Below, piece by piece: positions 8,211 through 26,651 of a stretch of DNA of 64,000 bases. Position 1 is the first letter of the stretch, and every line of letters begins with the position of its first letter. The DNA is taken from contig CP003316.1 in the NCBI GenBank assembly GCA_000247545.1, forward strand, positions 405,233-469,232, read 5' to 3'. The notes beneath the pieces are model-generated. The model was not told where the DNA came from. It ran no database searches and saw nothing but the letters and a program-made list of their open reading frames with translations. The position numbers and the translations under genes were made by a program. The DNA is from Pyrobaculum oguniense TE7. GTDB taxonomy: Archaea; Thermoproteota; Thermoprotei; Thermoproteales; Thermoproteaceae.

Positions 8211-9224
8211 ATGGGGCTGAGTGAGGTACTGCTGGTATATATAGCGGTTCTGGGGGCGTCCATATACCTAGCACCGCGAGTCGTAGGGACTAGGCGGTGG
8301 AGGCTCGGCTTCTACGGGCTAATGGCGCTGGCCGTTGCCGGAATAGTCCTCACCGCATACTACGTCTTGTCCCCCCTCCTCTTCCCCGTAGTCCTGCTGT
8401 TCCAAGCCGCCACCGGCATTAAGGACTACGTACTGGCGTTCATAGCCCTCGTGGCCACTTCCGCGTTTATTATGTACCTCGTAGCGCCGTTCCTCATAAA
8501 CGCCGCCTTCTCCCCGCGCCCCGACCCCCGCCTACAGGGCATCGTCGACGAAGTCGCCGCCAGGTTCGGCCGGAGGATAAGAGCCAAGGCCGTGGTCGTG
8601 GACGGGCCGCCCAACGCCTTCGCCTACGGCAACTTCCTCTCCGGCCGATACGTGGCGGTTACGACGGGGCTACTGAAAATCGCAAACCAAGACGAGCTGA
8701 GGGCCGTGATAGGCCACGAGCTGGGCCACCACGCCAACCGCGACAACGAGGTCATGTCAGCCCTGGGGATACTACCATCGCTGGCCTACTACACCGGAGC
8801 CGCGGCCATAGCCATCGGCCTAGCCAACAGGGAGAGGCCCGGGCTCCTGGCCGTTGCATACGGCGTCGTGATGATAGTCGTGTCCTTCATAATCCAGCTC
8901 CTGGTCATGGCCTTCAGCAGGCTCCGGGAGTACTACGCCGACATGCACGGCGCCCGCGCCGCGGGGAAAGAGGCGATGATGTCAGCCCTCGCCAAGATAC
9001 ACCAGTATTATAAAAACGCCCCAGAAGAGCTCCAAGCCTCGCCCAAGACCTCCGGCTTCAAAGCCCTCTTCATATACGCCCTCGTCGAGGCCGCCGCCAG
9101 CCCATTCGCAGACCAGATCCGCCTCCTCATGAACGAGCGCACCTCCTGGCTCGAGGAGCTACTATCCTCCCATCCACCCATACCCAAGAGGCTGAGGTTC
9201 CTCGCCGCGTTGCCCACCCTCTAA
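8211..9224 (+). CDS. htpX: HtpX-like M48 membrane zinc protease
   Basis: A 337-residue protein with two N-terminal hydrophobic spans, another pair after the active site, and the M48 zinc motif HELGHHANRD near residue 169. The third ligand lies in REYYADMHGARAAG. HtpX proteases degrade misfolded membrane proteins, with the active site on the cytoplasmic side. The ATG at 8211 has a tatatacta-rich promoter just upstream. A second M48 protease is at 45408. Length is usual for the family. Confidence 0.9.
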   Translation: MGLSEVLLVYIAVLGASIYLAPRVVGTRRWRLGFYGLMALAVAGIVLTAYYVLSPLLFPVVLLFQAATGIKDYVLAFIALVATSAFIMYLVAPFLINAAFSPRPDPRLQGIVDEVAARFGRRIRAKAVVVDGPPNAFAYGNFLSGRYVAVTTGLLKIANQDELRAVIGHELGHHANRDNEVMSALGILPSLAYYTGAAAIAIGLANRERPGLLAVAYGVVMIVVSFIIQLLVMAFSRLREYYADMHGARAAGKEAMMSALAKIHQYYKNAPEELQASPKTSGFKALFIYALVEAAASPFADQIRLLMNERTSWLEELLSSHPPIPKRLRFLAALPTL

Positions 9225-14191: not shown

Positions 14192-15187
14192 CTACCGCGC
14201 CAGGATTCTGAGGCGCTTGCCCACCTCGCTCAGATCTTGCTCCTCAGAGACCTTTGCGATTACGTACGCGATGGCGGCGTCTCTCGCGGCGTCACCTGCA
14301 TCGTAGAACAGCTCAACCCGCCGCAGATCCTCGGACTCGGCTAGGCTGGCTAGGCGCTCTCTCAGGCAACCGTAGAGCCACCAAGCCTCCCTCGCGGCGT
14401 CTCCAAGGCTCCCGAGACGCGCCAGCTGGGGCCACATCTTGAAGAGCAAGACGTTTCCTAGCAGTATTGAGAGGAATAAGCTCTCTAGCGGCGCTCTGGC
14501 GGCGAGCGCCTTGGCCACTGCCGAGCCGACGCCCGTCTGGACGACCACCTTGACCCTAAGGCCGCCGCTCAAAGAGATCCACCGGAGGACCACGTGTTCT
14601 ACCAGCTCCTCGTCGGCCGCGCTTGAGACGAGGTTGATAGCCGAGAGCGCCGCGTATATCGCCGGCGCGGCCTCCCTGGTTATCTTCTTCTCGTGCACCT
14701 CGCTGTAGTAGTCCCTCTCGCCCATCTTGCCGACCAGCACCGCGGCTTCCTCCCTGAAGCGCGCCGAGCCGTAGAGGAATATGTGCGCCACGGCAGACCT
14801 CCCGAGCAGTTGCTGGAAAGCGAGCGACTCAGCCACGTCGGACAAGCGTAGCGAGAGGCCGCCGCTGATCTTCAAGACCTCTTCGTCACCCTCCACGAGA
14901 CCCGCGGCGAACACGATCTGCCACTGGGCGAGCTCGCCGAACTCCGGGGAGCCCGCCCACCGCGACACCTCCTCGTAGATCCTGCCCAGAGGCCCATGCG
15001 CGAGCTCCTTGAAGGCCTCCTCGAAGTCCCCGGACAGCTCCCTCGACAAGGCCTCGCGCACGCCCCACACCTCTTCGTCGAGCGCCAGAAGGTAGCGGCG
15101 TTGCCTCCCCTTCGGCGGCCGGCGCCACAGCTTGACCGCGTGCTCCAGAAAGCTCTTGGCGACGCCCGCGGCCCGCTTAGAGCTCAT
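14192..15187 (-). CDS. Unknown helical protein of the accessory island
   Basis: A 331-residue, mostly alpha-helical, charged protein that I do not recognise. The N-terminus is basic (KLWRRPPKGRQRRYLLAL) and could bind nucleic acid. A C-terminal piece (LFLSILLGNVLLFKMWPQLA) has a homologous fragment on the same strand at about 16250-16442 (VVLGNALLFNVWPMAQSQI), so the family has at least two copies here. It is divergent from the zinc-ribbon gene at 15267. Confidence 0.65.
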   Translation of the reverse strand: MSSKRAAGVAKSFLEHAVKLWRRPPKGRQRRYLLALDEEVWGVREALSRELSGDFEEAFKELAHGPLGRIYEEVSRWAGSPEFGELAQWQIVFAAGLVEGDEEVLKISGGLSLRLSDVAESLAFQQLLGRSAVAHIFLYGSARFREEAAVLVGKMGERDYYSEVHEKKITREAAPAIYAALSAINLVSSAADEELVEHVVLRWISLSGGLRVKVVVQTGVGSAVAKALAARAPLESLFLSILLGNVLLFKMWPQLARLGSLGDAAREAWWLYGCLRERLASLAESEDLRRVELFYDAGDAARDAAIAYVIAKVSEEQDLSEVGKRLRILAR

Positions 15188-15874: not shown

Positions 15875-16264
15875 GTGGATCCCCGTAGCCTAGCCGAGAT
15901 AGTGGCTGAGTGGTGCGAGGACAACTGCGACTGGGGCCTTCCCTGGCGGCGGAGCCCCACGCCTTGGGGCATCCTCGCCGCCGCGCTTCTCTTGCGCAAG
16001 ACAACCGCCAAGCAGATGGCGGCGGTATACGAGGAGTTTCTCAAGAGGTACCCGGAGCCCCGCGCGCTCCTCCAGGCGCCTGAGGAGGAGCTGAAGGCGC
16101 TCCTGCGCCCCCTGGGGATCGAGAACCAGCGCGCCCGGCTCTTCAAGGAGCTCGCCCGAGAGCTGGCCGAGAAGTTCGGCGGGCAGGTGCCGTGCGACCG
16201 GGAGGCGCTCGAGAGCCTTCCAGGCGCGGGCCCCTACGCGGCTTCCCCTAATCGCGTCCGCTAG
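15875..16264 (+). pseudogene. Truncated MIG/MutY-type DNA glycosylase
   Basis: The frame begins like a HhH-GPD glycosylase (DWGLPWRRSPTPWGILAAAL, LRKTTAKQMAAVYEEFL, LRPLGIENQRARLFKELA) and reaches the hairpin LPGAGPYA near 16245. It then breaks off before the catalytic Asp and the Fe-S cysteines. It is clearly related to the intact enzyme at 19655 (RPLGIENQRARLF against RPIGLYNQRARQL). The join is to a reversed fragment of the helical gene family. It cannot be active. Confidence 0.75.
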
Positions 16265-17088: not shown

Positions 17089-18300
17089 ATGGCCGGCGTC
17101 GAGCGCGAGGTGGAGCTGGAGCAAGGCCTCTTCCTAGAGAAGCTTCTTCTGCGTCTCTCCGACAAGTTTACACAAGAAGTCGTCAAGGCCAGCGCCGCGA
17201 TCGGCATAAGCCCGCCCAAGCGCGTCTTGCTCTCGCTGAGGGGGTTCCACGAGTGCCTGGGGGAGGAGGGGTGCTGGGGCGGTGCATGCGGCTACTACGA
17301 CTGCGAGAGGGAGGAGGTGGTGCTCTCCCTCCCGTGCGCCGCCTGGAGGAGTGATCGCACAGAGGCCCTCCTCAAGACGATCGCCCACGAGCTGGTACAC
17401 CGGTGCCAGCACGCGGGAGGCCCGGAGTGTGCTGTACGCCGGAGTTGCGAAGACATGCGCCTGCTGGGCATGGTGCTACCCTATAGGCAGAGGCCGCACG
17501 AAGTTGAGGCCTACGCGAGGCAAGACGAGCTGGCCGAGAGACTAAGGCCCCACCTGGAGCGCCCTATTAGGGAGCTGTGGGAAGCCCTTACTATAAGGCT
17601 GAGGTTTAGTGAGCCCCCGCCGTTTAAGGCCAACCTCCTCTACGTGGAGCCCGGCGGCAAGGGAGAGCTGAGAGGCCCCGGCTTTACAGCCGAGCTGGCC
17701 GGTGATGTGGGCATAGGCGGGCCTATTCTCCTGTACTGGCCTACAAGTACGGGCTTAAACAGGGAGTTAAACGTGGACTTAGCCAGCACCACTGGCGGCG
17801 TATACGTAATCGTGGGGGAGGGCGCAACGAGGGCGTTCAGAGCGCTCAAGAACATGTTTGACATAAGCGAGCGGGGCGAGCAGAACCCGCACGCCCCTGT
17901 CTTTTGGGAGTGTAATACACGGCCTGAGTGGGTTCGGCGTGGTGAGGAGTATATCGAAATTATCTACCCCCATCATGCCACTGAGAGCTCTCTCACAATT
18001 GTGAAATTAAGGGTTGGTGAAAAAACGTTGCCGTATCACAAACTCATGGAACGGCTTCAGTCTGTATGCGGAGGAGGGGGAGGGGGCGCTTCTCAGCCGC
18101 CTGTAGAGATCACCGAGAAGGACATCAAGAAGCTCATCGAGGAACTCGAGGAGCTCCTCTACGTGCCTGTCCTACCCCTCACTGTCGTTCCCGCTCCTCC
18201 CCCCAGCGCTGAAGAGGCCTCCAAAACCTCCCCCACTCCCGCTACAGCCGCCCCCTCTGTGGACGCTGATGCCAATGGCGGAGAGAGCCCCGAGGGCTAG
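17089..18300 (+). CDS. Putative zinc metallopeptidase-like protein next to the DISARM-like operon
   Basis: A 403-residue protein with a zincin motif IAHELVHRCQH (HExxH at residues 100-104) and a downstream glutamate in RPHEVEAYARQ that may be the third ligand. Eight cysteines cluster in residues 56-120. The C-terminus is a Pro/Ala/Ser-rich tail after a GGGGGG linker near 325. ATG 17089 follows a tttttaaacc element at about 17061-17070. The family is not recognised. It points the same way as the methyltransferase but is separated by a promoter, so membership in the defence operon is inference. Confidence 0.65.
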   Translation: MAGVEREVELEQGLFLEKLLLRLSDKFTQEVVKASAAIGISPPKRVLLSLRGFHECLGEEGCWGGACGYYDCEREEVVLSLPCAAWRSDRTEALLKTIAHELVHRCQHAGGPECAVRRSCEDMRLLGMVLPYRQRPHEVEAYARQDELAERLRPHLERPIRELWEALTIRLRFSEPPPFKANLLYVEPGGKGELRGPGFTAELAGDVGIGGPILLYWPTSTGLNRELNVDLASTTGGVYVIVGEGATRAFRALKNMFDISERGEQNPHAPVFWECNTRPEWVRRGEEYIEIIYPHHATESSLTIVKLRVGEKTLPYHKLMERLQSVCGGGGGGASQPPVEITEKDIKKLIEELEELLYVPVLPLTVVPAPPPSAEEASKTSPTPATAAPSVDADANGGESPEG

Positions 18301-18333: not shown

Positions 18334-19677
18334 ATGTGGGGTCACGAGGACTTGATGATTAAAGGTGCTATGTATCTCGAAAGGCTTCCGTCGCCACATA
18401 TAATCAACACGTCGGGCTCGTGTATAGACGTATACGAATGTATGATAGGCTTTCTCTACGCGCTTTCTGCGCGCTACGGGCTACTAGACGTTGCTAGAGC
18501 TGTGCTCTCTTACGCCGTAGACTCTGCGACTATGTATACGGGCGTCTACGACGACGCCCTGTTAGAGGTTTTGCGCGGGGACGTCCCGTTGCCCAGAGTT
18601 GACGAGTTGCCTAAGTGGGGGAGCATTAGGCCGCGTGGCGCGCTATTCCGCACGAAAAAGGAGTGGCGCCCGGCCCGCGTAGCCGATGGCGTCGCCGTGT
18701 CGCTGTTTACAGGTGCCTACGGCCTAGATCTGGGGTTTGAGCTCGCTGGCTTCCACATAGCAGTGGGGCTTGACATTTCCGAAAACTCCATGAAGATCGT
18801 TAAGGCCAACCGCCCTAGTCTTCCGTTCGTACTCAGCGACGTTACCAGGTTTAAGCCAGAGGACTACTTAAGAGAGGCCCGCCTTAAGCCGGGCGAGGCC
18901 GACGTCTTAATTGCGGGACCCCCGTGCCAGCCCTTCTCGTCTTTTGGCAAAAGGCTTGGCTGGCTTGACGCCAGATCGTCTGCAATCAAGGCGTTGGGAA
19001 AGTACATTGAGTACATCAAGCCCAGAGTAGTCGTGGTGGAGGAGGTACCGCCAGCTAAGGGAGTCTTACTACCTTACTTACGCCGCGTGGCACAAAGGCT
19101 CGGGTATGAGATATCGAGCGCTGTGCTTAACGCGTGGCACTATGACACCGCGCAAGATCGCAGGAGGCTCTTCGTAGTGCTCTCTAAGGGGGGCGTGTGG
19201 GCCCCACCACAGCCAAGCCCCCGCAGGTTCGCCTTCGCTGAAGTAGCCCCGCCTGGCTCAGAGGACGTGGGCTGGGCCGAGTTACCGGAAAGCGTTGCTA
19301 GGTACGCACCTTATATACCCGGCGGCGGCTCGTGGCGGGTGTTGCCAAGAAAGTTGGCAAAAGAGGCCATGGGAAGGGCGCTACTCCAGCGCGGCGGGAA
19401 GACGGGCTTCCTCAGAAGGATCGCGTGGTTTTGGCCGGCGCCCACTCTCGTGGCAAGACCCACACACAGGGGCACTACGCTGATGCACCCGTGGGAGGAT
19501 CGCCCCTTGGGCGTTAGGGAGTACCTGCTCGTCCAAGGGTTCCCTAGGGACTGGTCCGTGCCGCTCCCGATACGGAGTGCGTATTATCTCATAGGCCAAG
19601 CCGTACCTGTGCCGCTGGCATACCACGTGGCTAAGTCAGTCGCCGCACTGCTCAATGGACGCAAAAAGGGTAGCTAG
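18334..19677 (+). CDS. drmMII: DNA (cytosine-5) methyltransferase, DrmMII-like
   Basis: A 447-residue enzyme that would methylate C5 of cytosine in a specific DNA site, marking host DNA. Motifs in order: I, SLFTGAYGLDLGFE (residues 123-136); IV, GPPCQPFSSFG with the catalytic Cys198; VI, VVVEEVPP (Glu instead of the usual Asn after the catalytic Glu); VIII, QDRRRLFVV; X, YYLIGQAVPVPLA. About 115 extra N-terminal residues precede motif I. ATG 18334 is 27 nt after a TATA-like ccataaatg. The last 23 bp overlap the glycosylase gene. DISARM class 2 systems use such a methyltransferase. Confidence 0.85.
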   Translation: MWGHEDLMIKGAMYLERLPSPHIINTSGSCIDVYECMIGFLYALSARYGLLDVARAVLSYAVDSATMYTGVYDDALLEVLRGDVPLPRVDELPKWGSIRPRGALFRTKKEWRPARVADGVAVSLFTGAYGLDLGFELAGFHIAVGLDISENSMKIVKANRPSLPFVLSDVTRFKPEDYLREARLKPGEADVLIAGPPCQPFSSFGKRLGWLDARSSAIKALGKYIEYIKPRVVVVEEVPPAKGVLLPYLRRVAQRLGYEISSAVLNAWHYDTAQDRRRLFVVLSKGGVWAPPQPSPRRFAFAEVAPPGSEDVGWAELPESVARYAPYIPGGGSWRVLPRKLAKEAMGRALLQRGGKTGFLRRIAWFWPAPTLVARPTHRGTTLMHPWEDRPLGVREYLLVQGFPRDWSVPLPIRSAYYLIGQAVPVPLAYHVAKSVAALLNGRKKGS

Positions 19678-20260
19678 GGCCGTTGAGCGGTGGGCTAGGG
19701 AGAACTTGGAGAAGTTGCCGTGGAGGGGCGAGAGGAGCCTTTATCGCCTTCTCGTGGCCGAGATACTCCTAAAGAGGACTACGAGAAAGGCAGCTTCCCT
19801 CGTCTATATGCAGTTCATCGAAAAGTACCCAACCCTCGAAGATCTGTGCAAGGCAAGCGTAGAGGAGGTAGAACAGTTGCTTAGGCCCATAGGCCTCTAC
19901 AACCAGAGGGCAAGGCAGCTTGTCCAGATTTGTGAGCACCGCCACGTACTCGAAAAAGCGACTACCTGGCGCGAGCTGGCTAGGTTGCCCGGCGTCGGGG
20001 AGTACACAGCAAAGGCAATAGGGGCTATACTGTTCGGCGAGCGGGTAATAGGGATCGACGGCAATGTGAAGAGGCTACTCGTTAGGGTGTTTGGCCGCTA
20101 TGATGACAAAATAGCCGATGCGTTGGCGATGGAGGCAGAGGACACTAGACTACTACAGCTAGGGCTTGTAGATCTAGGCTACAGGATCTGTGCCCCAAGG
20201 AGACCCAAGTGCAATAAATGTCCGCTTGCGGAAACGTGTTTATACACTAGGCAACACTAG
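19655..20260 (+). CDS. MIG-type T:G / U:G mismatch DNA glycosylase
   Basis: A 201-residue HhH-GPD enzyme with the hairpin LARLPGVGEYTAKAI, a catalytic Asp in IGIDGNVKRLL, and a [4Fe-4S] loop C-x6-C-x2-C-x5-C at the C-terminus (CAPRRPKCNKCPLAETC). The Tyr after the hairpin, in GEYTA, is the residue that marks MIG enzymes, in place of Lys in Nth or Ser in MutY. Mig.Mth of a Methanothermobacter plasmid and Pa-MIG of P. aerophilum remove T from T:G pairs. It overlaps the 5mC methyltransferase, so its job is surely repair of deaminated 5mC. A broken relative is at 15875. Confidence 0.85.
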   Translation: MDAKRVARAVERWARENLEKLPWRGERSLYRLLVAEILLKRTTRKAASLVYMQFIEKYPTLEDLCKASVEEVEQLLRPIGLYNQRARQLVQICEHRHVLEKATTWRELARLPGVGEYTAKAIGAILFGERVIGIDGNVKRLLVRVFGRYDDKIADALAMEAEDTRLLQLGLVDLGYRICAPRRPKCNKCPLAETCLYTRQH

Positions 20261-20291
20261 AACATAATACTGACGTAAAATTTTTTTATTT

Positions 20292-23200
20292 ATGTTGGCT
20301 ACACTGTCCGTGCATAGCTTGATACGTGTTGCAGAAAAAGTTGCGGACGCTCTCCGTTCTAGGCACCACGCGGAGAAGCCCCATATATCTGTGGTAGCCA
20401 TTTCAAGGGATTTCTTCGACATGGTGCTACGCGACATCCTGTGTGGCACTAGGATAGAGATTGAGGAGGATGACGAGGAAGATGTAGAGGAGGTTGAAGA
20501 GTCTCTGACCTCGATACCTCCTCCGTGGGCTTTCGGCGTGAGTGCCGAGGCCGAGTGCTTAGAGAACGGCTCTATTAGTGCGGAGTTCAGGTTTGTAATA
20601 AGGAGGGGGGTACGAGGATCCCCGGAGACACGAGGCGACACAGTTACTGATCCCGATCCCAACGAATATGCTGACCTTGTGCTAAAGGCTGACGTGAGCG
20701 TGTCCGGCGGACTCGTTGTTTCTGGCGCTTTGGTTACGGCAGACGGCAACCAGATCTGCAAGTGTCAAGCATCAGGCGTAGATGAGCCTGTGTGGCTGCT
20801 CTTCTTCCCAAAGAGGTTCTGGAATGCGGTAAACACGGCTACACAGAAGATGGAGGGGGCCTTGAAAGTAATGGGCTTAAGACTAGATCCTAGTACAAGA
20901 TCCGTTGACAGGGCTAAATACAGTATATGTTTGTGCGACGATCACCGGCTTGAGGCGGTGATACATGACAGACACCTAAACGAACTAGGTAGACTTTATT
21001 ATGCGATGGGCCTCTATGCCAGCTACACGGGCGAGAGGCTAAATGTATACCTTGTAAACCTAAGCGGGTACGTAACATCTACCGATAGATCAGTTGTTAA
21101 CGACATGTGTAAGAGGAGAGGACTCGTCTATACGTGGTCCGACGAACAAAGCAGATGGGCCTTGGGCTACCTCATGGAGACACATGGGCGACTCCAGTTT
21201 AACAACGGGTGCCGGCATCGGGCGAGGTGGACTGAGCACGGCATAGTAGGGGCGTACCCATTAAATGCGGTAGTGAAAACAGATCAGGAAGGTAACTACA
21301 TAGAACTGAGGGACTACGTCGTTGAGGAAGAAATAGTAAGGAGGCCCGTGAAAGACAACGTCTCAATAAGCCAAGTGTTGACTTCGGAGGCCTTAAAAAT
21401 TGCCGAAAACGTCGGTGGTTGTGACAAGGCGAGGGAGATCCTTTCGGCACTGGCGGAGGCTGTTACTGCATATATTGGCTCTGAGTATCTTTATAAGTTC
21501 CAGCGGGAGGCCCTTATAGAGATATTAAAGAATATTACGGCTAACGACAGAAGAGCAGTAGTTATAACTGCGCCCACAGCTGCTGGCAAGACCCTGGCGT
21601 TCCTACTACCTATCATCGTCGACTTTGCGGTTCTTGCTTGTAGCCGTAAGGCGCAGCCTAGGGGGGTGCTATATTATCTGTTATACCCAACAAAGGCGTT
21701 GGCGAACGATCAGCTCGATGAGGTAGCTAACATCTTGTACGCTATCTGGAGGAGGTTGCCGCAAGAAATAAGGAGGTTGGTGATACCGACTTTTGGACTA
21801 CTTCACGGCGATATAAAGGACGAATACTACGAGACGCCTATATCGTACACCACTGCTGAAGGAAAAACTGCATACGTAAGCGTAGAGTGTGACCGAGCTC
21901 CAGAATACAGACCGCCTAATTGTCATGTTGAGTGTAACGAGTGTCCCCCAGATTTCGTTGACTTCTTGAAGGAGCACTATAGGCCTAACCGGTTTGCCAT
22001 ATACTCAGATCCGCCAAATATCCTGATTACCGACGAGGACATGATTAATAGAATCCTTAGTCTGAGACCTTATAAGTATCCCGCAGGAGAGGGGAGGGGG
22101 TACGTCCCAGTGTACGAGTTACACTTATTTGGCGGAGGGTATAAGCGCTGTAAGGTATGCGGTTTTGTGTACCCTCCCGCCTACGAGGGATATAGGGGGA
22201 AAAACCTTTGCAAAATATGCCAAAGTGGAGAGCTAGAGGGCCTTACAGCAGAGCCTCCCCGCATATTTGTACTTGACGAGGCGCACCAGCTACACGGTAG
22301 TTTTGGCAGTCAGGTACGTTACTTATTTGCTACTCTAGAAGATCATATCAGGAGGGAATGCAAAGAACACATAGTGAAGTACGTCATATCTAGTGCGACT
22401 ATAGCACAGCCTAAATCTTTCGTTAGCAGATTACTCAACTTAGGCGAAGACAAGATTGTAGAGATATCGGCGAGCTTGTCTGAGAGGGAGGAGGAAAGAG
22501 TTAACAGGGTGCACTTGGTGCTAATGCCAAGGTCGTACACACGTGATAACACGCTCTCCATGGCATTGTATTATCTTTTCTCGGTATGGCCCGACGCCAA
22601 AGGTATAGTCTTCACTAATACCCTCAGCGAAAATAATGATGTAACTAACGCGTTGAGAGACAGACTGGCAAACCTTAATGTAGAGGTAAAGTCGCACTCT
22701 ACCGACTATAACCGCTACGACTTGTACGATGACGAAGACAGAGTGAAGATTGAACAGTGGTTTAAGTACGCGAGAGAGAGAGCGGTGCTCGTGGCAACGC
22801 CGACCATGGAGCTCGGCGTGGATATAGGAGACGTCAATTTCGTCGCCCTCTACGGCCTTCCTGAGACTCTCAGCAGTTACATACAGAGAATAGGCAGAGC
22901 TGGTAGAAAGCGCGATGCCCTAGTGTTGACTGTAGCGAACCCGTTTAACAGGTACGACTACTTCTTTTACGAAAACTACAAGCTCCTTACAGACTCGGGG
23001 CTTAGGGCAAAAGCTCAGCTCAGGGAGGTCATCCCCATCAGCGTTACTAACAGAGAAGCATGGACGCGTGGTGTGCTACGCCATTTACTTTACATATTCA
23101 AGCACTACTGTGTGAAGGACAGAATGTGTGCTAGACAATACATAAACGACGAGTATAATATCGACGATGTTTATCTCATGATTAAGAGGGTAACGCTTAA

Positions 23201-23579
23201 CGACTTTCCTGATATCTTTAGACAGCATTCTTTTGAACAGGCCCTAGATCGTATACTGAAGGATCTTCTAGAACGCACTAACCCAGAGAGGGGCCCAGTG
23301 AGGAGGACACTGCGCTACGATGACGTGGCTCAACACCTAGCAAGGGTCACCGGAAGAACTGAGATCTTATCGCTCCTGAGGAACCTAAGGGGGTTTGATC
23401 TCCAGATAATGCTAGAATTCCCTACAGGCGAGGTCAGGTCACGTGACGCCTACATCTTCACCAGAAAGGGGGCAACTGGCCAGATAGTCTCATTTAGAGG
23501 CCGGTACTACGTGATAAACTCATACAGAAATGAGGTATCGTCAAGGCTTAGCGAGTTCCTAGGCGACAAGGGCCCATGA
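20292..23579 (+). CDS. drmA: DEAH-box superfamily 2 helicase, DrmA-like
   Basis: The 1095 residues hold a long N-terminal domain (about 1-390) with an acidic patch (EEDDEEDVEEVEE), then a helicase core: Walker A TAPTAAGKTLAF near 427, motif Ia YPTKALANDQL, DEAH in VLDEAHQL near 660, SAT near 700, and VATPTMELGVDIGD with QRIGRAGRK near 850-870. Zinc-binding Cys pairs (CHVECNEC; CKVC and CKIC) lie between the motifs, an insertion typical of DrmA/YprA-like helicases. It would translocate on incoming DNA. ATG 20292 follows an A/T-rich run. It is joined to drmB by ATGA. Confidence 0.85.
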   Translation: MLATLSVHSLIRVAEKVADALRSRHHAEKPHISVVAISRDFFDMVLRDILCGTRIEIEEDDEEDVEEVEESLTSIPPPWAFGVSAEAECLENGSISAEFRFVIRRGVRGSPETRGDTVTDPDPNEYADLVLKADVSVSGGLVVSGALVTADGNQICKCQASGVDEPVWLLFFPKRFWNAVNTATQKMEGALKVMGLRLDPSTRSVDRAKYSICLCDDHRLEAVIHDRHLNELGRLYYAMGLYASYTGERLNVYLVNLSGYVTSTDRSVVNDMCKRRGLVYTWSDEQSRWALGYLMETHGRLQFNNGCRHRARWTEHGIVGAYPLNAVVKTDQEGNYIELRDYVVEEEIVRRPVKDNVSISQVLTSEALKIAENVGGCDKAREILSALAEAVTAYIGSEYLYKFQREALIEILKNITANDRRAVVITAPTAAGKTLAFLLPIIVDFAVLACSRKAQPRGVLYYLLYPTKALANDQLDEVANILYAIWRRLPQEIRRLVIPTFGLLHGDIKDEYYETPISYTTAEGKTAYVSVECDRAPEYRPPNCHVECNECPPDFVDFLKEHYRPNRFAIYSDPPNILITDEDMINRILSLRPYKYPAGEGRGYVPVYELHLFGGGYKRCKVCGFVYPPAYEGYRGKNLCKICQSGELEGLTAEPPRIFVLDEAHQLHGSFGSQVRYLFATLEDHIRRECKEHIVKYVISSATIAQPKSFVSRLLNLGEDKIVEISASLSEREEERVNRVHLVLMPRSYTRDNTLSMALYYLFSVWPDAKGIVFTNTLSENNDVTNALRDRLANLNVEVKSHSTDYNRYDLYDDEDRVKIEQWFKYARERAVLVATPTMELGVDIGDVNFVALYGLPETLSSYIQRIGRAGRKRDALVLTVANPFNRYDYFFYENYKLLTDSGLRAKAQLREVIPISVTNREAWTRGVLRHLLYIFKHYCVKDRMCARQYINDEYNIDDVYLMIKRVTLNDFPDIFRQHSFEQALDRILKDLLERTNPERGPVRRTLRYDDVAQHLARVTGRTEILSLLRNLRGFDLQIMLEFPTGEVRSRDAYIFTRKGATGQIVSFRGRYYVINSYRNEVSSRLSEFLGDKGP

Positions 23580-24958
23580 CTCCGCTAGAGCGTCTGAAGG
23601 TTCTTGTCGAGGAGTTAACTGATGTGTACAATGGGGCGTCGCTCGGTAACGCGTTAAGCCGGTGGAAAGAGTGGCTCAGTACAGACGAGCTTATGAACAA
23701 GATCACTGTGATGAACCCAGTGGAGGGGACGGCCTTGATTACACAATACAGAGACGGTAATAATATTGTGGAGGGGCTTGAGTGGTACCAGTGCCCCAGA
23801 TGCGGATATGTGTTCAAAATAATATCGGGGGACAATAGATGTCCTAAGTGTGGCGCAACGGCGATCCCGTTGTTTGTGGGCGTGGCCAAACCAGAGCGGG
23901 CCGTACAGCCCTATGTTGGCGCGCGGGGGGGCTTCGCGCTAATAAGTTCAGTCGCCGTGAACAGGGGCACTTACCGCTTGCTTGAGTGTCCCTTGAAGAA
24001 AAAGCGGCTTGGTCGAGGCATCGTAAGTCGCGGTATTAAGAGTAGCGATCCTCAGCGGCCGATAATGTCCCTAAGGGCTGTTTGCTATGTAGATAGCGTA
24101 AGGGGGGGGGGAAGGGAGCATTGTAGCTACTATGATCCAGCTAGCCATTTCTGTACATACAATGGAGGGAGGATTTACTTTAGTTTTGCCCTGCCTCTTT
24201 CGAACACTACAGTTGTCCCGGTAAGGCCGTCTGAGGAGCTTACTAAGCCATTTATCGTCACCGTACACTCCATAGGCAGGGAGGAGCAACCAGACGGCAG
24301 TGTGTTGCTCAGAAACTTCAAAGAAGTGCTGAGCGATCCCGATCTTGTTGAAGACGTAAAGTTCGGAGAGGCCACCGTATGGGAGCTCCAACTATTTTAC
24401 ACTGTCGGCCCTCCAACGACTTCTAGATATTACAGGGTTCCTGTGTTATACTCGGACATAGGCCTTTCCAGTAATTTACAGTACAAAATCCCTGGTAGGA
24501 AGCTAGTCACTAAGGGCCTCTATGTAAGACTGAACTTTAATGCCTTGACGAAAATTACCGAAGAAGTGAACAAGGCAGCTCCCATTAGGCTCAACGAGTT
24601 CACAGTAGTGCACTCTCTATCGCATGTACTGCTAAATGCTGTGGTAAACACTGCAGGCGTCTCCGAAGAGGAAGTAAGCGAGTCGATCTTTTTCACTATG
24701 AGGCACCGCGAGGCCGAGATAGTGATATATGACAACGCACCAGGCGGTGTCGACGGCGTAGGTGCGGCTGTTAGGAACTTCCCCGATCTAATTTATAGGT
24801 TATTCTACAGTGCAAGGGTGTGTCCAAGGCGTTGTAGAAGTGCTTGCAGGGCTTGTCTCTTTTCAACGTCTTGTACTTATGCCAACACCAGGCTGTCGTG
24901 GATCGCGGCTTATAGGCTTATGAACTGGGCAAAGATGGATTTACTCAATAAACCATGA
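23576..24958 (+). CDS. drmB: DUF1998 protein, DrmB-like
   Basis: A 460-residue protein with a zinc ribbon near residues 72-95 (CPRCGYVF and CPKCGA) and, in the last 120 residues, the DUF1998 signature: VHSLSHVLLNAV, then YDNAPGGVDGVGAAV and the Cys cluster CPRRCRSACRACLFSTSC. DUF1998 proteins work with DrmA-type helicases in DISARM. It overlaps drmA and drmC by four bases each. A run of ten G at 24102-24111 (codons about 176-178) could shift the frame and switch the gene off. Confidence 0.85.
   Translation: MTPLERLKVLVEELTDVYNGASLGNALSRWKEWLSTDELMNKITVMNPVEGTALITQYRDGNNIVEGLEWYQCPRCGYVFKIISGDNRCPKCGATAIPLFVGVAKPERAVQPYVGARGGFALISSVAVNRGTYRLLECPLKKKRLGRGIVSRGIKSSDPQRPIMSLRAVCYVDSVRGGGREHCSYYDPASHFCTYNGGRIYFSFALPLSNTTVVPVRPSEELTKPFIVTVHSIGREEQPDGSVLLRNFKEVLSDPDLVEDVKFGEATVWELQLFYTVGPPTTSRYYRVPVLYSDIGLSSNLQYKIPGRKLVTKGLYVRLNFNALTKITEEVNKAAPIRLNEFTVVHSLSHVLLNAVVNTAGVSEEEVSESIFFTMRHREAEIVIYDNAPGGVDGVGAAVRNFPDLIYRLFYSARVCPRRCRSACRACLFSTSCTYANTRLSWIAAYRLMNWAKMDLLNKP
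24102..24111 (+). repeat. Poly-G tract of 10 inside drmB
   Basis: Ten consecutive G encode Arg-Gly-Gly-Gly in the DrmB-like protein. Loss or gain of one G would truncate DrmB well before its DUF1998 domain. Variable G runs are documented for P. aerophilum, so this is a candidate slippage switch. Confidence 0.9.
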
Positions 24959-25689
24959 GCAGTGAGGCCGAGATCCTATTAAAAGCTCTTAGAGAAAGAG
25001 GCGGGTGCGCCAAATTACCAGAGCTCGCTGTTGCGACGGGCTACAGCGTATTTAGGTTACTTACAGTGTTGAATGAGCTCTTGGCCGTAGGCGCCGTTAG
25101 GCGAGATCGTGTCGGCGATCCTCTGAATCCGCTGTCTACCACAGAGTGGTGCGTCCAAGAGCCGAAGAGCAAGCAAGAGGTGCTCGGGTCAATTGAGGCT
25201 TTAATCGCTACACCGCCTCTCTTAAAAGACGCGGCGGAGCTGATTGCGCCGCTCGGAATCCCAGTGATCAGCTCCCAAGAGGTCTTGCGCAATGCGCTTT
25301 GCAACACATCCACTTACTTCAAGTTAGCCGTCCCCTATATAGACAGTACAGCGTACGTCTTCTTTACCGAAAACTGCCTAAGTCCCAAGGCAGAGTACAA
25401 AATCCTGCTCACAGGTCAGAGGGAGGACAAAATGCAGGCTACGCTAAGGATTCTAGAGGATATAAGGAACTACATCCCGAATGTAGTATACAGAGCCGTA
25501 GACGGCAAGAGGGGCCTACACGCTAAGTTTCTTGTAGTAGACGGTAAATACGCAGCGGTGTTTACCTTCAATCTCTACTACACACACTATGTGCGGAACT
25601 ATGATATAGGCGTCGTCGTGCGGGGCTCGCTTGTGGAGCTACTCGACAAGATCTTTGACTACCTATGGAGTCGTGCCACACAGCCGTAG
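24955..25689 (+). CDS. drmC: Phospholipase D-fold protein, DrmC-like
   Basis: A 244-residue protein. Residues 1-55 look like a winged helix (LPELAVATGYSVFRLLTVLN). The rest is a PLD domain with one HKD motif, HAKFLVVD (His189, Lys191, Asp196), followed by AVFTFNLYYTHYVRNYDIGV. PLD enzymes of this sort are usually dimeric nucleases or phosphodiesterases; DrmC is the matching DISARM component. It overlaps drmB by ATGA and the next gene by 25 bp. Confidence 0.8.
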   Translation: MSSEAEILLKALRERGGCAKLPELAVATGYSVFRLLTVLNELLAVGAVRRDRVGDPLNPLSTTEWCVQEPKSKQEVLGSIEALIATPPLLKDAAELIAPLGIPVISSQEVLRNALCNTSTYFKLAVPYIDSTAYVFFTENCLSPKAEYKILLTGQREDKMQATLRILEDIRNYIPNVVYRAVDGKRGLHAKFLVVDGKYAAVFTFNLYYTHYVRNYDIGVVVRGSLVELLDKIFDYLWSRATQP

Positions 25690-26651
25690 CACGGTTACGG
25701 CGTTTAGTTAACAGTAAGCTCAGAAGCCCCTCTGAGACTAAGGCGAAATCGAGAGAGCTTATAGAGTTGGGCGTATTTCTGGGTTACATACATATTGGGG
25801 AGGGTTTTTACCACTTTTTCTATAACGAGAGGTTCAACAAAGTTATGAGGTTTAAGCACGTGCGCAATCTAAGTCCGAGAAAGTTTTTTAAAAGTATATA
25901 TGCGCAAGTTGCTGGAGGCACCCTTTCCCTCTACCCGTCTGTCGGCACTATTATTCCGCGTAAGGGCAGTAGCTCCAGAGTAGTGCTGAAGTTACGCTCG
26001 GCTCCCTTCAATGGCCGCATACCGCTTTATGCGGATAACGGGCTGTTAGAGCCGATACTCTGTTCCGCCGTCGTGCCAACAACAGGCTTCACGACGGCAG
26101 CCGTGGAGATCCGAAGAGGGTTAACGAGGGTGCCCTTTGCTGTTGTAGCTGTTAGGCCGGATAAATTGGCTTTCCAAGGGTTTGACGTCATTATTAAAAC
26201 CGGCGCAACGACGCTGAAGGCTGTCGGGGGGTATACGCTGAGGGGGCCGAAGAGGGGTGACTGCGCAGTGCTTGCAGTGGATCTCTCCACATGTATACCA
26301 CAACGGACGGTATACTTGTTATCGTCCTATACTTGCGATGCGTTTACCCAGGCGCCTCTCTGTAAGATATGGGGGTTTAGGGTGGTTGAAGCGCGAATGG
26401 TATATGCCGAAGTCGAGCGGTTGCTATCGGCGGGAGCGGAGCCTAACAGCTTACTTCCCGTAGTGGACAGAGAGTGTGTTAGTAAGGTGGACGGTTCAGC
26501 CAGGAGGAAGCTCCTAGAATGCGCTAAGCGGATAAGCACTGATGTACTCTTACCTACGGAGGAGTACGTAAAGACGTGTGGAGTAAGGCGAAGGACTATA
26601 GAGGTATTAAACACCACACCAAGCCAACTGGACGACTGTGTCACAGCTTAG
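25665..26651 (+). CDS. Unknown last gene of the DISARM-like operon
   Basis: A 328-residue protein I do not recognise. It begins with a basic helical segment (AVARLRRLVNSKLRS), then a mainly beta region (residues 60-230) with repeated YADNG, FTTAAVEIRRG and VDLSTC elements, and a helical C-terminus with ten or so cysteines in all. The ATG lies 25 bp inside drmC, so it is translated with the system. It has no resemblance that I can see to DrmD or DrmE. It could recognise methylation or act as an effector; this is inference. Confidence 0.75.
   Translation: MESCHTAVARLRRLVNSKLRSPSETKAKSRELIELGVFLGYIHIGEGFYHFFYNERFNKVMRFKHVRNLSPRKFFKSIYAQVAGGTLSLYPSVGTIIPRKGSSSRVVLKLRSAPFNGRIPLYADNGLLEPILCSAVVPTTGFTTAAVEIRRGLTRVPFAVVAVRPDKLAFQGFDVIIKTGATTLKAVGGYTLRGPKRGDCAVLAVDLSTCIPQRTVYLLSSYTCDAFTQAPLCKIWGFRVVEARMVYAEVERLLSAGAEPNSLLPVVDRECVSKVDGSARRKLLECAKRISTDVLLPTEEYVKTCGVRRRTIEVLNTTPSQLDDCVTA

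Follow-up and report, generated by a model that had tools for sequence, protein, structure and literature searches.

The described system closest to the locus analyzed here is that of Mig.Mth (Mig.MthI), a small glycosylase of the HhH-GPD/4Fe-4S type that accompanies the M/R.MthTI system on the Methanothermobacter plasmid pFV1, where it likewise lies beside a 5-methylcytosine (5mC) methyltransferase. Mig.Mth has been described as reducing deaminated 5mC (PMC2714593), and the association of a MIG with a 5mC restriction-modification system is already known. That system is of type II rather than DISARM, and its methyltransferase lies on the other strand, 1.4 kb from the glycosylase gene. Vsr, the enzyme of very short patch repair, is a PD-(D/E)XK endonuclease. 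As described in PMC6116569, Vsr is likewise a dedicated T:G repair enzyme that travels with a 5mC methyltransferase, Dcm; the enzyme of our locus differs in being a base-excising glycosylase. In DISARM, the self-mark is provided by a cytosine methylase (PMC10273834); class 2 of these systems is composed of DrmE, DrmMII, DrmA, DrmB and DrmC. Brig1 and PabI are likewise DNA glycosylases in a defense setting; they differ in belonging to other protein families and in attacking foreign DNA rather than repairing self-marks. Our literature search returned no report linking DISARM with a glycosylase; the original DISARM paper lay outside this search, and an earlier remark is possible there. Furthermore, a survey of YprA-family helicases that includes DISARM mentions no glycosylases in its main text (PMC12458937).

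The locus described here belongs to Pyrobaculum oguniense TE7, a hyperthermophile (PMC3558965) whose genome has reverse gyrase. Coordinates are positions in the window, meaning the whole 64,000-nt stretch of CP003316.1 that was analyzed:

15875..16245, + strand: relic of a MIG, truncated after the helix-hairpin-helix (HhH); about 120 residues of the N-terminal part
17089..18300, + strand: 403 aa; zinc-protease-like HExxH motif ('AHELVHRCQH'); lies 33 bp upstream of drmMII
18334..19677, + strand: DrmMII, C5-cytosine DNA methyltransferase, 447 aa (PF00145, 3.5e-41; full-length match to the PADLOC DrmMII model)
19655..20260, + strand: MIG-type mismatch glycosylase, HhH-GPD with 4Fe-4S loop, 201 aa, ATG start (PF00730, 2.1e-15)
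20292..23579, + strand: DrmA helicase, 1095 aa (PADLOC PDLC02569, full length)
23576..24958, + strand: DrmB, MZB/DUF1998 domain, 460 aa (PADLOC PDLC02578, full length; PF09369)
24955..25689, + strand: DrmC, PLD-like nuclease, 244 aa (PADLOC PDLC02586, full length; PF13091)
25665..26651, + strand: last gene of the string, 328 aa, no function assigned, overlapping drmC by 25 bp

From drmMII onward, the genes form a contiguous string in the order DrmMII-glycosylase-DrmA-DrmB-DrmC, with spacings of −23 (DrmMII/MIG), +31 (MIG/DrmA), −4 (DrmA/B), −4 (DrmB/C) and −25 bp (DrmC/last gene). The first-pass annotation had placed the glycosylase ATG 23 bp inside the 5mC methyltransferase gene and had attached the pair to a DISARM-type system; the two reading frames do overlap by this length, and the PADLOC matches to DrmMII, DrmA, DrmB and DrmC bear out the setting. 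DrmA, DrmB and DrmC are the components that define DISARM, and DrmMII is one of those that define class 2. None of the locus genes scanned with PADLOC models matched DrmE, the other class 2 component, and we therefore call the system class-2-like. Compared with class 2, it shares DrmMII, DrmA, DrmB and DrmC in one contiguous run, lacks a recognized DrmE, and has the glycosylase and the 328-aa last gene in addition. The PADLOC models for DrmMII, DrmA, DrmB and DrmC have exactly the lengths of the window proteins, so that the locus is evidently among their seeds and this DISARM is evidently already in that database. The glycosylase was matched in PADLOC only as a 'type II nicking endonuclease' (221-aa model PDLC03398), which is likely a misnomer for this MIG family.

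We favor, with a probability of roughly 0.7, the reading that this DISARM of class 2 character carries its own repair enzyme, the MIG serving as a dedicated repair arm of a 5mC-based defense. DrmMII would mark host DNA with 5mC, and the DrmAB/DrmC machinery would spare DNA so marked. Since 5mC slowly deaminates to thymine, T:G mismatches would arise exactly at the protected sites. The glycosylase, presumably translated from the mRNA that also encodes the methyltransferase, would excise the thymine (or a uracil) opposite guanine; the AP endonuclease, polymerase and ligase of the cell would restore C:G, and the site could then be methylated again. According to PMC5042384, crenarchaea mostly lack other means of recognizing T:G mismatches. 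We count against this reading that DrmMII, whose motifs are otherwise PPCQ (IV), QDRRR (VIII) and GQAVP (X), has EEV instead of ENV in motif VI; its methylation activity is a prediction.

Membership of the 403-aa HExxH protein in the DISARM system is uncertain: domain, PADLOC and NCBIfam searches gave it no family match, and neither it nor the last-gene product has a homologue in the other loci fetched. Annotated SprT-like proteins also occur near two haloarchaeal MIG/methyltransferase pairs. For the 328-aa last-gene product, a fold was predicted from its single sequence only, with a pLDDT of 36. A run of seven T lies in 20261-20291, just upstream of the drmA start, and DrmMII-MIG and DrmABC could therefore be separate transcripts, a further point against the repair reading.

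A relic of another MIG at the same site

A search of the whole P. oguniense TE7 genome (2,452,920 bp, two contigs) gave three matches: the window glycosylase, an endonuclease III and the truncated MIG at 15875-16245. There is no second intact MIG in this genome. The relic, 3.4 kb upstream, lacks the catalytic Asp and the Fe-S loop, and 3' of it lies antisense sequence resembling the gene at 14192-15187. Its best intact relatives adjoin 5mC methyltransferases in five sister genomes (L044, L045, L046, L048 and L049), and a PDLC03411-type endonuclease is also present in 4/5 of these loci. In one of them, L048, the methyltransferase-endonuclease-MIG module occupies the same chromosomal site, and its flanks match the window genes at 8211, 26785, 28131, 28658 and 29505 in identical order. 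It follows that a methyltransferase-endonuclease-MIG module formerly sat at this hotspot, where DISARM with another MIG is found today.

This history bears on the possibility that the window enzyme is a general genome-repair glycosylase, acting on T:G and U:G anywhere, that replaced a lost resident MIG and was kept in the operon by happenstance. Such a role would fit a gene that is the sole intact MIG of its genome, the only other copy being a relic. Yet the relic, too, has its intact relatives in the company of 5mC methyltransferase/endonuclease modules. Furthermore, several Pyrobaculum genomes have no MIG match beyond EndoIII-like ones, so that a resident general MIG does not seem to be needed. 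We consider this explanation unlikely.

Two of the sister loci contain a further gene pair: a 1257-1287-aa helicase is followed by a 670-683-aa protein without a family match (L044, 2355-8176; L048, 2245-8117), and in both Pyrobaculum genomes the pair adjoins a MIG and a 5mC methyltransferase. It is possibly an undescribed defense pair.

MIG genes beside 5mC methyltransferases

The proximity of MIG and methyltransferase genes extends far beyond Pyrobaculum. When about 85,000 named genomes were scanned specifically for MIG, 42 loci emerged, 38 of which have an intact MIG-type gene by profile. A 5mC methyltransferase was found within 8 kb of the MIG in 37/38, across many phyla and often touching it; the sole exception is a 5-kb contig. 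Among control loci, 0/20 with haloarchaeal MutY (one of them, L231, ambiguous) and 0/20 with crenarchaeal EndoIII adjoin a 5mC methyltransferase. The pairing is therefore more than chance (37/38 versus 0/40; Fisher test, P = 1.5e-21), and the coupling of MIG genes to 5mC methyltransferase genes is a strong general pattern. It is also carried by plasmids of Methanothermobacter, Thermus, Caldicellulosiruptor and haloarchaea. Viral contigs, when scanned, returned one relative, and the window DrmA had no match among plasmids.

Viewed from the methyltransferase side, the 61 nearest genomes contain eight PPCQ-type enzymes, and a MIG lies within 2 kb of seven of them, all but that of G048. Only PPCQ-type methyltransferases were counted, because whole-genome PF00145 counts are confounded by a ubiquitous PPCE family. 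This family, a PF00145 protein of about 320 aa with PPCE as motif IV, occurs in nearly every Thermoproteia genome, including those without a MIG (for example, G000:C1:253030-253947 in L108, and across L107-L136). The reverse rule, that a MIG implies a methyltransferase, is not strict: eight loci in Thermoproteia (L037-L043 and L047) have MIG-like genes with no 5mC methyltransferase nearby, and on plasmid pP742401 of the cyanobacterium Gloeothece a MIG-type gene annotated as an adenine glycosylase has none within 12 kb.

The breadth of this pairing weighs on whether the glycosylase could instead be a defense effector, producing abasic sites in viral DNA at deaminated or modified bases that DrmC or host enzymes then turn into breaks. 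Antiviral and restriction glycosylases do exist, namely Brig1 (PMC11078745) and PabI (PMC10273834). Moreover, the gene is flanked by those for the self-mark and the helicase, and the system includes a PLD-like nuclease, DrmC. Against this, MIGs of the same type are also found with the 5mC methyltransferases of unrelated systems, type II restriction-modification among them, which points to a tie with methylation and not with a particular effector. The characterized member, Mig.Mth, is credited with lowering the load of deaminated 5mC, and many haloarchaeal DrmA loci have no MIG. We therefore regard an effector role as quite improbable. A broader version, in which the glycosylase is active in DISARM immunity and not in repair alone, opening T:G, U:G or modified sites and feeding abasic sites to DrmC, strikes us as very improbable; if it were true, DISARM would provide the first example of a base-excision effector in a multi-gene system.

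Identity of the glycosylase

By sequence and pocket residues the window glycosylase is MIG-type, with predicted T:G/U:G activity, and not MutY. Its nearest solved relative is Mig.Mth (1KEA; 5.8e-30, 107.9 bits), compared with 87 bits for Escherichia coli MutY. Profiles score it at 222 for MIG versus 109 for MutY and 60 for EndoIII; since the window protein was itself part of the MIG profile, this comparison alone is biased. An AlphaFold2 model built from a 23-sequence alignment has a mean pLDDT of 96.5, and its best PDB match is again 1KEA (E = 9e-12). MutY folds score nearly as high, and the fold alone therefore does not decide the identity.

The first-pass annotation had assigned the protein to the MIG type from a Tyr after the HhH, a catalytic Asp and a full Fe-S loop. 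All three features are present: Tyr117 in 'LPGVGEYTA', Asp135, and Cys179-X6-Cys186-X2-Cys189-X5-Cys195. The assignment holds, and so do the last two features; the Tyr is not diagnostic, since it is also found in the MutY of Geobacillus stearothermophilus and in 19/19 aligned haloarchaeal MutY proteins, and we rejected it as a MIG marker. A comparison of pocket residues over 134 aligned rows is more informative. Three positions of the glycosylase are MIG-like and not MutY-like: MutY Gln182 corresponds to Leu, Gln42 to Arg and Tyr82 to Leu. The first is the equivalent of Mig Leu187, a non-polar residue where MutY would have Gln, Glu or Asn. The pocket Glu, Tyr, Asp and Asn are retained, including the equivalents of Mig.Mth Glu42, Tyr126 and Asp144.

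Two residues depart from Mig.Mth: Phe27 is Leu, and Ala50 is Arg44. For adenine, MutY uses Val45 and Gln182; the corresponding residues of Mig.MthI are Ala50 and Leu187, and changing both (A50V/L187Q) converts Mig to an A:G enzyme (PMC2714593). Arg44, which takes the place of Mig Ala50 and MutY Val45, is counted against the repair reading, as this position helps to set thymine versus adenine preference. MIG-type proteins differ from one another at position 50 (Ala, Ser, Gly, Val or Thr), and we therefore treat it as non-defining; the Arg is shared only with the protein of L036. That gene, in genome G055, is also of MIG type and lies about 100 bp from a 5mC methyltransferase.

An adenine glycosylase of the MutY type, or an enzyme for another lesion unrelated to 5mC, would be in keeping with this non-MIG Arg44, with the near-equal structural superposition on MutY and with the nearest named NCBIfam model, which is mutY (129 of 286 bits, far below its cut-off). 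Set against these points, the protein has MIG-like replacements at each of Gln182, Gln42 and Tyr82, the C-terminal 8-oxoG-reading domain of MutY is missing from a protein that ends at 201 aa, and true haloarchaeal MutY genes have no methyltransferase linkage. We find this identity hard to credit.

DISARM-linked MIGs and growth temperature

Among Thermoproteota, DrmA of the window kind occurs in 2/398 genomes. The second, G254, has DrmABC; neither a MIG nor a methyltransferase is visible, and no reverse gyrase match exceeds the cut-off. Related DrmABC sets were found in L082, L063, L103 and others. L082 belongs to an archaeal MAG with reverse gyrase, whose own group of 23 genomes places it outside Thermoproteota, and carries a methyltransferase, MIG, DrmC, DrmB and DrmA in a row. 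It is a second hyperthermophile, from another lineage, with a MIG beside DrmABC.

Haloarchaea have DrmA in 41/292 genomes. A MIG is present in 18/41 genomes with DrmA versus 24/251 others (odds ratio 7.4, P = 4e-7), and in 18/18 genomes having both it lies 1-16 kb from drmA; these 18 include one MIG with an in-frame stop (G418) and one found only by a finer local scan (G628). Four further haloarchaeal drmA loci carry broken MIG remnants. More than half of the haloarchaeal DrmA loci have no MIG nearby, which we count against the repair reading. A nine-locus MIG clade was found only beside DISARM (9/9 rows), some of its members 20-120 bp from drmC or drmA. Other haloarchaeal MIG/methyltransferase pairs often adjoin a three-gene cassette that neighbors DISARM and encodes an ATP-binding protein, a 345-aa protein and DUF6339, and the pair of clade 2 may belong to this neighboring cassette rather than to DISARM. 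The cassette (L063, 6365-9994; L091-L098) is often duplicated within one locus.

Trees, built by a quick method, rejected a single clade for all DISARM-linked MIGs (p-AU 3e-63) and placed 8-9 changes of this label, so that the MIG/DISARM pairing arose more than once. A clade of the window and L082 MIGs is neither shown nor rejected (p-AU 0.14); the MIG of L082 falls within the clade that the type II MIGs of Pyrobaculum form, and that of the window next to L036 (SH-aLRT 80-93, not starred). Defense islands do shuffle genes, and other cassettes separate the pair from DrmABC in some haloarchaea, but chance hitch-hiking of unrelated island genes has next to no likelihood given the 23-bp coding overlap with drmMII, the DISARM genes directly downstream and this repeated recruitment. 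In view of the recurrence, annotation of DISARM should probably list MIG as an accessory.

Thermophiles growing at or above 60 °C have long been predicted to avoid 5mC, as heat deaminates it, and a study of M.ApeKI left open which repair makes 5mC bearable in heat (PMC8557920). A MIG gene joined closely to that of the methyltransferase, in type II restriction-modification as in DISARM and in several phyla, would be a concrete answer to this puzzle. The first-pass annotation had proposed to check whether every DISARM of thermophiles, but not of mesophiles, has a MIG. The first half agrees with the cases at hand: given the 2/398 Thermoproteota, it rests on two hyperthermophiles, the window and L082, both with a MIG. 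The second half fails. Haloarchaea are mesophiles to moderate thermophiles, and many have a MIG beside DrmABC. Heat may still raise the need for a MIG; the haloarchaeal recurrence indicates that it is not the only driver, and any long-lived 5mC self-mark may select its own repair. Among 32 genomes checked, nearly all of them MIG-bearing, reverse gyrase was over the cut-off in 12 and not in the other 20, the latter including Lokiarchaeota, Chloroflexi and haloarchaea.
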